40,376 nucleotides of DNA from an uncultured Synechococcaceae cyanobacterium (lineage in GTDB: Bacteria > Cyanobacteriota > Cyanobacteriia > PCC-6307 > Cyanobiaceae), in contig CACBBE010000007.1 of NCBI GenBank assembly GCA_902537395.1, forward strand, positions 1-40,376. Direction: 5' to 3'. The translations under genes were made by a program, and so were the position numbers. This document shows, piece by piece, positions 7,019-9,217 of the stretch. The notes beneath the pieces are model-generated. The model saw only the letters and a list, made by a program, of their open reading frames with translations. It had not been told where the DNA came from and did not search any database. Within the stretch, counting starts at the first letter, position 1. Every line of letters starts with the position of its first letter.

Positions 7019-7028
7019 CATTTTATAT

Positions 7029-7088
<60 letters not shown>

Positions 7089-7100
<12 letters not shown>

Positions 7101-7152
7101 TTTATATGTCTCGAAAAGTCATGCAAAGTCACCTATTCGGTGACTTTTTTAT
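7089..7152 (+). repeat. direct repeat copy 1 (tRNA-Asn 3' end plus terminator; attL-like)
   Basis: This is the first copy of a bipartite direct repeat. CCGCCCGGGGAGTTT (7089-7103, spanning the tRNA 3' end) is identical to 8511-8525. Four differing bases follow, then 26 identical bases from GTCTCGAAAAG to GTCACC (7108-7133), matching 8530-8555. After a divergent loop, GGTGACTTTTTTAT matches again (7139-7152 and 8565-8578). Offset is 1422 bases before the loop and 1426 after it. This is what a site-specific integration at a tRNA 3' end leaves behind. Confidence 0.85.
7125..7150 (+). terminator. rho-independent terminator of tRNA-Asn
   Basis: A nine-base-pair stem, AAAGTCACC (7125-7133) with GGTGACTTT (7139-7147), encloses the loop TATTC and runs into six T residues (7145-7150). 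It lies 25 bases after the tRNA. The same stem with a different loop recurs at 8547-8576. Confidence 0.85.
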
Positions 7153-7184
7153 GTCAGTGACTACCTTCACAATGAAAATGTCTA

Positions 7185-7322
7185 GACGAATAATGACATC
7201 TTAGTGTAATTTTATTCGTCCAGTATTCGTATTTTTATTCGTCTTTTAGTGAAAATATTCGTCCATATTTTCAGTCACTTTTACTGCTATTTTTCACGTT
7301 TATCTTCGTCCAAATTCGTCCA
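7185..7322 (+). repeat. ATTCGTCCA motif cluster
   Basis: The 9-mer ATTCGTCCA occurs exactly at 7214-7222, 7257-7265 and 7314-7322. Partial copies are TTCGTCCA at 7305-7312, ATTCGTC at 7237-7243, ATTCGTA at 7225-7231 and the inverted GACGAAT at 7185-7191. A further exact copy lies at 8432-8440 with a partial TTCGTC at 8421-8426, near the other end of the element. Spacing is irregular. Recombinase arm-type binding sites would fit, but that is inference. Confidence 0.6.
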
Positions 7323-7452
7323 ATTATTATCTAACAATTAACGATTATTAAATGATGAATAGTGATTGCTAATTATCAATCTACTATCAATCAAGTGTAT
7401 CAAAACTAAAAATATGTGATTATAAAAATAAATATCACGCCTAAATTTTTAT

Positions 7453-7518
7453 TTTGCCAAGATAAATGTGCATCTAATTCCTGTCCGCAAAGCAGTGGTC
7501 TTGGATGCAAATTTTTTT
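7453..7518 (+). terminator. terminator-like hairpin of an unknown transcript
   Basis: TTTGC-CAAGA (7453-7462) pairs with TCTTG-gat-GCAAA (7499-7511), a ten-pair stem with a three-base bulge, followed directly by seven T residues (7512-7518). The 36-base interior can form a smaller CCTG/CAG-type hairpin. The T run is on the plus strand, so it would stop rightward transcription, convergent with the transporter gene ending at 7533. No rightward gene precedes it inside the element, so it may end a small RNA or protect the transporter transcript from tRNA read-through. Confidence 0.45.
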
Positions 7519-7532
7519 AGGGCACTTAGTAG

Positions 7533-8156
7533 TTAATTCACACCTAAAGACAATTCTTTCTGAGATGCTCTGATAACTTTCAAAGAAGATTTAGTAAATA
7601 CGTATGTAAGTAAAAATCCAACTAAAATATCAGGTATTGGAGATGAATATAAACCTGTTATAAATGCAGCGATTAGGACTGAAGAGTTTGCAATAATATC
7701 ATTTCTTGAACACAACCAAACTGAAGACATATTGAGATTATCTTTTCTATGTTTTGTTAAAAGAAATAGGCAAGATAAATTCGCTACTAAGGCGATAATT
7801 CCAATACTAGACATTGTTTGATGTAAAGGTATTGACCAGTTATGTAATTTGTATAAACCTCTTACAAGAACAATAAATGCAAATCCAAGCATAATAAAAC
7901 CCTTGAGTAATGATACTCTTGCCTGAGCATGTTGGGATTTATAAATCACAAATATACTACTTCCATAAACTAAAGCGTCACCAAGCATATCGAGCGAATC
8001 TCCAGTAAGAGCAAGAGATTTTGCCCTAAATCCACTTACAAGTTCGACAACGAACATTATTAGATTTATAAAAAGAACAATCCATAAAATGTTTGAGTGC
8101 TGTTTTTGAATATTTTCTAAATCTTTGCTTTTATTTTGACAACAATTATCACTCAT
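7533..8156 (-). CDS. short cation diffusion facilitator-like transporter
   Basis: A 207-residue membrane protein related to CDF metal-ion exporters (Zn, Co, Cd type). Five to six hydrophobic segments can be seen, at roughly 22-44, 50-72, 83-101, 113-133, 152-170 and 172-190. The second carries DxxxD (Asp56, Asp60 in GDSLDMLGDALVYG), the metal-site pattern of this family. The later site reads SRNDIIANSSVL, with Asp152 and Asn156 where classical CDFs have His/Asp. The cytoplasmic C-terminal domain is absent, as in the short subfamily. The N-terminus has a Cys-Cys pair (MSDNCCQNKS). It is the only recognisable cargo of the tRNA-bounded element. The transported ion is unknown. Confidence 0.75.
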   Translation of the reverse strand: MSDNCCQNKSKDLENIQKQHSNILWIVLFINLIMFVVELVSGFRAKSLALTGDSLDMLGDALVYGSSIFVIYKSQHAQARVSLLKGFIMLGFAFIVLVRGLYKLHNWSIPLHQTMSSIGIIALVANLSCLFLLTKHRKDNLNMSSVWLCSRNDIIANSSVLIAAFITGLYSSPIPDILVGFLLTYVFTKSSLKVIRASQKELSLGVN

Positions 8157-8258
8157 TCTTTCTTGATTATAAAATTTTATTAGACAAACTATTTTATTAT
8201 AAAATTTAATTTAAGTATTAAATTTTAAAGAAATGGACATTTAACTTTTAATTAAAAG

Positions 8259-8348
8259 ATGAAATTTATTAAACAACTTTTACACTTTGAAACCGAAAGT
8301 GCCTCGAAAATTAAGACATCCGATCCTAGCACTCAAGTTTTAGTGTAA
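8259..8348 (+). CDS. 29-residue micro-ORF in the element, unproven
   Basis: ATG at 8259 to TAA at 8346-8348. The product begins MKFIKQLLHFETES and ends STQVLV. It is rather polar, unlike a random translation of A+T-rich DNA, which is why it is listed. The ribosome binding site is weak (AAAG just upstream). It lies between the transporter gene start and the right repeat. No family recognised; it may instead be the remains of a longer gene. Confidence 0.25.
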   Translation: MKFIKQLLHFETESASKIKTSDPSTQVLV

Positions 8349-8372
8349 GAAGTTTAAAAAGGAGTCTTCCAT

Positions 8373-8414
8373 ATGCCTATCATGAATGTGGTGGATATAA
8401 ACTTTAAAAAGTAA
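8373..8414 (+). CDS. 13-residue micro-ORF with a strong ribosome binding site
   Basis: AAAAAGGAG ending at 8364 stands 8 bases before an ATG at 8373, the best Shine-Dalgarno match in the element. Yet the frame, MPIMNVVDINFKK, closes after 13 codons at 8412-8414. Either it is a real leader-type peptide, or a gene start whose body was deleted when the element shrank. It follows the 29-codon ORF by 24 bases. No known family. Confidence 0.25.
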   Translation: MPIMNVVDINFKK

Positions 8415-8510
8415 TAATTTTTCGTCAAAATATTCGTCCAATTCTAAATTTCTTTCGTATTTGTCATGACAAATCGTGTCATATCAAGACTTATTTTGTA
8501 AAATCAGCGT

Positions 8511-8578
8511 CCGCCCGGGGAGTTTTAAAGTCTCGAAAAGTCATGCAAAGTCACCCTTAAAAAAGGTGACTTTTTTAT
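8511..8578 (+). repeat. direct repeat copy 2 (tRNA-Asn 3' end plus terminator; attR-like)
   Basis: This second copy of the repeat described at 7089-7152 starts with CCGCCCGGGGAGTTT (8511-8525). The 5' part of a tRNA is missing: the bases before 8511 (AAATCAGCGT) do not match the tRNA, so this is a 3' fragment and not a gene. It keeps 26 identical bases (8530-8555) and the terminator stem. It marks the right junction of the element. Confidence 0.85.
8547..8576 (+). terminator. second copy of the tRNA-Asn-type terminator
   Basis: Stem AAAGTCACC (8547-8555) with GGTGACTTT (8565-8573), nine-base loop, then six T residues counted from 8571. The stem equals the one after the tRNA while the loop differs in length and sequence (CTTAAAAAA here, TATTC there). 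The hairpin has been kept while its loop drifted. Confidence 0.75.
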
Positions 8579-8646
8579 TTCTTTGATCTTTTTTGTCAAA
8601 TAGTGGTTAGCCGAAGATATAATCAAGTATATTTGATATAATTTTA

Positions 8647-8742
8647 AGAACAGTATCTAGAACATAAGAAGTAATCAAAATTTGTCATGGTATTTATAAG
8701 TTTTAATTAAAAAAATTGTTTTTTGAGAACAGTAATTAGAAC
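8647..8742 (+). repeat. pair of 17-base direct repeats
   Basis: AGAACAGTATCTAGAAC (8647-8663) and AGAACAGTAATTAGAAC (8726-8742) differ at two central positions and lie 79 bases apart, just outside the right repeat. Each is itself partly symmetric around the variable pair. No function is evident; a protein-binding site pair or a remnant duplication would both fit. Confidence 0.4.
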
Positions 8743-8857: not shown

Positions 8858-9217
8858 TTAGTCATCCCACATATCCTTTTTCTCTTGATCTATATTATTT
8901 TTTTCAAGTAATTTTATTCTTTGCTTCTGAGAATCTATTTCTGTTTCAATTACGTTTTTATCGTCAATATATTTTGTTTGTATTTCTAAAATATTTATTT
9001 CAAATTGTTCTCCAAAAAAATCTGACATTTCTTTCCATGCTTCCATTTCCTCTTCTTTGCCAATAGTATCGTTTATTTGATGTGAAATAATTTCTAATAC
9101 ATATTGTTTAAGTTCTTGATGACTCATCGATTCAACTTTTTTTTGAATGTAAAGTTCTTTCAGAGTTTCTAGTTGTTTTTTTGATAAATCAGAGTAGATA
9201 ATAGATTTCTTTTTCAT
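8858..9217 (-). CDS. conserved-looking charged helical protein, unknown function
   Basis: A 119-residue soluble protein rich in Lys, Glu and Ile, starting at the ATG 9215-9217. The first half has a well-formed helical character (KKQLETLKELYIQKKVESMS, then HQELKQYVLEIISHQIN). The second half, EIDSQKQRIKLLEKNNIDQEK, could form a short coiled coil. A GKEEEMEAWKEMSDFFGEQF segment in the middle resembles a small family I associate with picocyanobacteria, but I cannot name it with certainty. It stands alone: no neighbour within 280 bases downstream, a 400-base gap upstream, next to the tRNA-Asn element. Confidence 0.65.
   Translation of the reverse strand: MKKKSIIYSDLSKKQLETLKELYIQKKVESMSHQELKQYVLEIISHQINDTIGKEEEMEAWKEMSDFFGEQFEINILEIQTKYIDDKNVIETEIDSQKQRIKLLEKNNIDQEKKDMWDD

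Follow-up and report, generated by a model that had tools for sequence, protein, structure and literature searches.

A 1.4-kb insert behind the tRNA-Asn gene

The DNA analyzed here, referred to as the window, is a 40,376-nucleotide stretch of a Prochlorococcus genome that is 61% complete (1,067,473 bases in 53 contigs). According to ARAGORN its sole tRNA gene is a tRNA-Asn(GTT) at 7028-7101, and the 3′ end of this gene recurs downstream. A 45-nt repeat pair at 7089-7133 and 8511-8555 is 93% identical at a spacing of 1422 and includes an identical 15-mer, CCGCCCGGGGAGTTT, and an identical 26-mer, GTCTCGAAAAGTCATGCAAAGTCACC; the far arm of the terminator is repeated as a 22-nt pair at 7139 and 8565 (86% identity, spacing 1426). 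An earlier note on this DNA had described just such repeats, of 15 bases of the tRNA 3′ end, 26 further bases and a terminator stem at 1422-1426, and all three are confirmed. When up to three mismatches are allowed, the 15-mer has two sites in the window, where 0.11 are expected and none of 100 shuffles reaches two, and a 72-base query made from the repeat finds two places only in the window's genome, both of them in this repeat. Both terminator hairpins fold, with energies of -13.4 and -10.8 kcal/mol (z -4.0 and -2.9). The parts of the insert and its flanks are as follows.

7028-7101, plus strand: tRNA-Asn (GTT), the target gene, whose 3′ end is the left core (ARAGORN)
7089-7103, plus: left core (attL side), CCGCCCGGGGAGTTT (repeat and 15-mer count)
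7108-7147, plus: left linker 26-mer and element-type terminator hairpin (repeat and fold; unlike the empty-site linker)
7185-7190, minus: inverted arm-like word TTCGTC (word scan; at the same place in sister elements)
7215-7263, plus: left arm, with TTCGTC at 7215, 7238 and 7258 and a near-copy TTCGTA at about 7227 (word scan and alignment)
7305-7320, plus: two more TTCGTC words, at 7305 and 7315 (word scan)
7533-8156, minus: cargo, a CDF cation-efflux transporter of 207 aa (PF01545)
8421-8438, plus: right arm pair, TTCGTC at 8421 and 8433, 12 bp apart (word scan)
8511-8525, plus: right core (attR side), the identical 15-mer (repeat)
8530-8573, plus: 26-mer linker of element type on the right, then a terminator that is chromosomal from its loop onward (repeat, linker comparison, fold)
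8858-9217, minus: DUF7326 gene, chromosomal flank taken as the far end (PF24012; synteny)

Only one open reading frame of at least 50 aa lies wholly within the insert, and its 207-aa product matches Pfam PF01545 (Cation_efflux) with E 4e-15; the match to the longer CDF superfamily model, which extends to position 198 of 285, falls below the cut-off. No integrase gene was found in the 1.4 kb among open reading frames of at least 50 aa and by Pfam, so the description of a unit with a single cargo gene for a metal-cation transporter, and no integrase, stands. The inserted DNA had also been said to differ in style from its surroundings. By G+C it does not, the insert having values of 0.27-0.31 and the surroundings 0.21-0.39, and this property was set aside as a means of marking off the insert.

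The CDF gene is rare, occurring in 3 of 266 genomes of the genus: that of the window, G022 and G189. The copy in G022 is 79% identical and follows a core copy of tRNA-Asn at a distance of about 255 bp; that in G189 is 90% identical over residues 13-207, its start seemingly out of frame, on a contig that also has apparent high-light-inducible genes. Ratios of dN/dS of about 0.2 and 0.13 argue that the protein is under constraint. In no other genome was the CDF gene seen between TTCGTC arms.

The word TTCGTC occurs 12 times in the window, and 8 of these words are in the 1.4-kb insert, near its two ends. Over the whole window 6.5 would be expected, and a total of 12 is reached by 4 of 100 shuffles; what is unusual is the clustering. 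The right arm words begin 90 and 78 bp before the right core. Beyond the insert, the chromosomal flank has a 22-nt direct repeat (8642-8663 and 8721-8742) around AAGAACAGTA..TAGAAC, and a similar one is seen in relatives with an empty site.

Empty, alternative and tandem occupation of the site

A query of tRNA-Asn plus terminator matched 200 of the 200 genomes of the genus that were searched, many of the matches being partial or to other tRNAs. One hundred loci were fetched around tRNA-Asn, integrases or arm words, making 101 with the window. The census comprises 90 loci with an anchored tRNA-Asn, of which 83, the window included, have a known far end, taken as the DUF7326 gene or else a response-regulator gene (rpaB, holB and cysK serve as working labels for genes at these loci); the other seven have no far end. 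The 11 loci whose tRNA-Asn was not anchored are L038, L094, L135-L142, which had been fetched for their integrases, and L169; L038, which shows two mismatches in its tRNA-Asn and has TTCGTC words in its left end, failed the stricter anchor. The first 40 loci had been chosen for their similarity to the window, from the top matches to its tRNA-terminator stretch, and the frequencies that follow are those of a biased sample rather than population estimates.

Among the 83 resolved loci, 33 are empty, with a single core and 191-434 bp to the far-end gene. Another 41 contain one or more additional copies of the core, and in the remaining 9 the interval is longer but a second core was not found. Removal of the 1422-bp unit would leave a gap of 411 bp in the window, a usual empty length. 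Both states are found among the loci with flanks closest to the window (about 94-96% identity): L048, L061 and L062 are empty, and L075, L101, L133, L152, L164 and L165 hold other inserts of about 1.9-10 kb. The empty site with a single core copy and the alternative cargo between core copies that the earlier note proposed to look for in related genomes are thus both present, and the 1.4-kb unit is a site-specific insertion. It has the direct repeat of the tRNA 3′ end and the empty counterpart in relatives that are typical of an integrative element, and it encodes no integrase of its own.

Insertions at this site may also accumulate in tandem, with at least two further cores in 15 of the 90 loci. 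One array (L099) consists of an integrase-bearing element followed by two integrase-less ones. In L152 (G238:C14) four further core copies occupy the 10 kb from tRNA-Asn to DUF7326, and the arm words alternate (ATGGTCGTGAAAT, TGTTCGCTAT, ATGGTCGTGAAAT). In L049 (G004), a TTCGTC unit is succeeded, 1.0-10.5 kb after tRNA-Asn, by about 9 kb of genes that by eye resemble surface-sugar genes; no second core was detected there.

The linker of empty sites is of the type ATAAAT..C.AAAAAGTTATCC, and both copies in the window read GTCTCGAAAAGTCATGC. The left terminator is of element type; the right copy begins as element type and becomes chromosomal at the hairpin loop. This leaves two possibilities: the site once held another TTCGTC unit, or the copies exchanged sequence. 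One locus, L092, has a TTCGTC unit followed by a second left end of TTCGTC type. Because the right copy is a mixture of element and chromosome, differences between the copies do not provide a clock, and their reading as drift, which had suggested an old or fixed element, was set aside.

A repeated word at both ends of the elements

The repetition of one short word at both ends of the element is a new observation here. In twelve further TTCGTC units the right pair lies at the same distance from the core to within 1 bp. More generally, a word pair, defined as identical words of at least 6 nt, 11 or 12 bp apart and starting 85-95 bp before the core, is found at 45 of the 63 right cores in the 90 loci, compared with 53 of 5400 random windows (1%); no pair was detectable at the other 18. 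Of 42 elements in which this could be tested, 33 repeat the exact right word in their left arm, where 2.95 would be expected; related elements are not independent, and a binomial p for this count is no true probability. The layout is constant across elements and the word differs from one element to another: TTCGTC, TGTTCGCTA, ATGGTGGGGAA, ATGTTGGGAA, ATGGTCGGGAA, ATGGTCGTGAA, TGGTGGCGA, AGTTAGTGTAA, ATGTGTTTT, TGTGGCATT, TAGTCCA and TCGTTCTGGT are among those found.

Conservation within the 13 TTCGTC elements follows the words most closely at the right end, where motif columns are 0.994 conserved and other columns 0.903; the contrast is small at the left end (0.869 and 0.832). The exact TTCGTC right-arm pair is present in 13 of 266 genomes of the genus, compared with 0 of 266 for a reversed control. 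A search of 400 genomes of the family detected the right-end pattern in 4, each of which belongs to the window's genus, and in none of the 58 other genera.

A lambda-type tyrosine integrase that binds arm sites would need a layout of this kind, with a core and arms. By analogy, the arm-like words would be the binding sites of an integrase. Seven tRNA-Ser integrase loci (L138, L140, L176, L177, L178, L179 and L180) likewise have pairs of words, at a spacing of 12 (or 11) bp, close to the tRNA-Ser and close to the integrase, with words such as TCCCAACAACA, GGGGATGAAATG, ACACATGTA and TTCGTCACAACA. Given these pairs, the arm layout may be general.

Elements with an integrase and the search for a helper

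Five elements at tRNA-Asn carry an integrase and have the same end layout as the integrase-less units: L099 (7.1 kb), L131 (10.3 kb), L132 (14.6 kb), L133 (8.0 kb) and L134 (7.9 kb, with a stop inside the integrase match). In two more stretches, which are without a tRNA (L135 and L136), core and arms lie beside an integrase. Pfam assigns PF00589 to the integrase of L133 and only PF14659 to that of L099, the tRNA-Asn integrase of G050, which a PF00589 search had not listed and which was recognized by a local profile that also detected an integrase fragment in L096; PF00589 alone is therefore a misleading guide. Seven aligned integrases share R250, W346-R347 and Y381 (L133 numbering), residues that fit the catalytic set of tyrosine integrases, and the L133 enzyme is 33-40% identical to the other six. 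In genus-wide searches the L099 and L133 integrases matched 22 and 21 of 266 genomes, respectively.

Three words are common to elements with and without an integrase. The word ATGGTGGGGA occurs with an integrase in L131 and without one in L075, L097 and L143; ATGTTGGGAA with one in L132 and L136 and without in L109 and L165; and ATGGTCGG with one in L099 and L135 and without in L100. When whole right ends are compared, the closest relatives of L131 and of L132 are integrase-less units with the matching word, but that of L099 is L152, which has a word one base different.

Neither the integrase loci that were fetched nor the searches across the genus yielded an integrase beside TTCGTC arms. The nearest integrase-bearing relative of the TTCGTC units is L133, which has the inverted site, a 12-bp pair and the word TAGTCC, and whose right end is the closest to TTCGTC ends (0.54-0.55, compared with a median of 0.39). 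Two TTCGTC units, L037 and L040, hold cargo that by eye is like that of L133. L133 also encodes a small serine recombinase (PF00239), as by eye does L099; no conjugation gene is present among the nine annotated proteins scanned in these two elements.

The genome of the window has two PF00589 matches. One, on contig C10, was considered as a helper and rejected: within 16 kb (L112) there is no tRNA, and TTCGTC words are single and far apart. The other is a 389-aa frame present in most genomes searched. The L099 and L133 integrases gave no match at E 1e-15 in this 61% complete genome. An integrase with a matching site in the same genome had been named as a check, and none with TTCGTC arms was found. 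In a complete genome (G050:C1), two 424-aa integrase-like genes with identical printed translations lie near 1090800 and 1290988 (L118 and L119), in opposite orientation and 200 kb apart.

Viral copies were sought as well. The right-arm word pair matched three IMG/VR contigs, which were taken as chance; in L089 and L091 it falls inside phage coding sequence, and the third, L090, was scanned for tRNAs only. The full right-end pattern matched one viral contig, inside an open reading frame of an apparent phage, again taken as chance, and searches for viral copies with two other patterns and the L133 integrase gave no relative. In a phage collection this integrase matched 89 records, all below 60% identity, with identities of 23.5-28.1% among the 20 of the 89 matches listed.

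Integrase-less units and their movement

No integrase was matched in 39 of the 45 elements with an arm pair, as judged by tblastn at E 1e-4 with 15 integrases, a comparison that could miss a divergent enzyme. These 39 elements range from 170 to 7205 bp, and six are below 260 bp; units without cargo measure 170-257 bp. With relatives as short as 170 bp, the 1.4-kb unit is not minimal, as it had been called.

Evidence for movement comes from a sister unit of 961-1000 bp (roughly 975 bp), which is TTCGTC-armed with both ends included, contains a 105-aa open reading frame, and is found in seven genomes of different backgrounds (L036, L039, L041, L042, L049, L092 and L093). The unit of L041 is 90-92% identical to those of the other six, and the left flanks are 75.5-77% identical. 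Pairwise, identity is higher in the element than in the flank for 20 of 21 comparisons; only L036/L039 goes the other way. Synonymous divergence (dS) of the 105-aa frame, which L044 carries in a larger unit, is 0.05 for L039/L044, 0.18 for L039/L041 and 0.19 for L041/L049, and for four flanking genes in the same pairs it is 1.0-1.9. Such low values relative to the flanks indicate that integrase-less units moved between clades after the clades had split; their route of transfer we infer. The ends of the window's own unit have diverged from those of its sisters, with identities of 69-78% at the right and 58-86% at the left, and this unit may therefore be an older resident.

Interpretation

The sequence comparisons favor, with a probability of about 70%, the view that the insert in this Prochlorococcus tRNA-Asn gene is a non-autonomous integrative element, which has no integrase gene and is moved in trans by an integrase that reads the arm word. 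It has the features that a tyrosine integrase would have to recognize: its core restores the tRNA 3′ end, it brings its own terminator, and several arm-like sites at one end and two at the other enclose one CDF passenger. Evidence that weighs against this view includes the 18 right cores with no word pair, the small contrast in the left arm, the diverged ends of the window's unit and the pair L036/L039. The integrase of another, autonomous element would insert and excise the unit, and the word TTCGTC would decide which integrase can use it. Such units probably derive from autonomous tRNA-Asn elements through loss of the interior. The earlier suggestion of a passenger mobilized in trans is supported indirectly, by the arm-like sites without an integrase, the integrase-bearing elements of the same layout and the cross-clade unit of about 975 bp; no TTCGTC-armed integrase came to light in the window's genome or in searches of the genus.

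It is also possible, though unlikely, that the insert is a decayed remnant, an immobile fossil, or CIME in the strict sense, that lost its own integrase in place. An integrase fragment (L096) and an interrupted integrase (L134) are present at tRNA-Asn, and both the cargo of L037 and L040, which by eye resembles that of integrase-bearing L133, and the diverged ends of the window's unit are in keeping with it. Against it stand the 961-1000 bp unit, which has crossed clades and is found with both ends in seven backgrounds, the six arm-paired units below 260 bp, and right-arm words that are nearly invariant. Movement in cis, in which the unit travels only in tandem with an integrase-bearing neighbor that later leaves, seems far less probable still: tandems are common enough to suggest it, as the arrays of L099 and L152 illustrate, but most TTCGTC units have no integrase-bearing neighbor in the stretches read, and the words of neighbors in L099 and L152 differ from one another.

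A duplication of the tRNA and terminator, or gene conversion, with no site-specific insertion would explain why the right 26-mer matches the left one although empty chromosomes carry another linker, and that match does require either that the copies exchanged sequence or that a unit once present in tandem was lost. As an account of the whole insert it is extremely improbable, being contradicted by the empty sites in near relatives, the varied cargo at the same core and the positioned arm words, and plain duplication was set aside on the first two of these grounds. The earlier note had allowed for it as the alternative to insertion. We return to the trans-mobilized element in comparing the insert with known systems.

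Relation to known mobile elements

Anatomically, the insert is a CIME. CIMEs, as described in PMC5704250, are cis-mobilizable elements that have lost their integration and transfer genes and kept attL and attR; the window's insert retains attL and attR and has neither kind of gene. It is like them in lying at a gene's 3′ end, flanked by att sites and devoid of an integrase, and in the tandem accretion seen at this locus. It differs in that no conjugative gene is seen to take part, in that its integrase-less sisters have crossed clades and include units of 170-257 bp with no cargo at all, and in that elements with an integrase use some of the same arm words.

Elements of Prochlorococcus that target tRNA genes and carry cargo are reportedly the subject of the original tycheposon paper in Cell. 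The insert resembles them in organism, tRNA target, cargo and direct repeats of the tRNA 3′ end. Tycheposons are given in PMC10872708 as 4-200 kb elements at seven tRNA genes with a tyrosine recombinase; the insert has no recombinase and is only 1.4 kb long. Picocyanobacterial elements at tRNA-Phe and tRNA-Cys, according to PMC10187409, encode an integrase. They occur in the same organisms, and a serine recombinase is a further likeness to L133 and, by eye, L099; they use other tRNAs and carry their integrase. A functional parallel may be provided by MITEs and CALINs, which, as described in PMC11389934, depend for their movement on transposases or integron integrases encoded elsewhere. The present units likewise have recognition ends and no enzyme gene; their predicted enzyme would be a tyrosine integrase that targets tRNA genes and uses core plus arm sites. 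By this analogy the element probably works like a MITE or CALIN for such an integrase.

By title and abstract, no paper listed in full-text searches of the open PMC library deals with the matching of arm words or with integrase-less Prochlorococcus units at tRNA-Asn, although the original tycheposon paper may describe such remnants; a search of open PMC for Prochlorococcus, tRNA-Asn and integrase returned only a paper that, by its title, concerns a halovirus. The arm-word code is the new, testable part of the present analysis.

A wider reading has about an even chance of being correct. The tRNA-Asn site would host a guild of integrase-less elements, ranging down to cargo-less units of 170 bp, in which the arm word acts as a password naming an integrase lineage; arms would co-evolve with their integrases as the core stays fixed, and single useful genes, here a metal transporter, would move as cassettes. 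That word pairs stand at both ends of tRNA-Ser integrase loci suggests that such a code could be general in the genus.

If so, one-gene cassettes would need only a borrowed integrase, and the elements would provide a testable route by which an abundant phototroph of the ocean could gain and lose single genes in its streamlined genomes. The series of arm words at a fixed core would constitute a natural experiment on the arm specificity of tyrosine integrases, and the word pair would offer a sequence signature for integrase-less elements that are invisible to gene-based searches.
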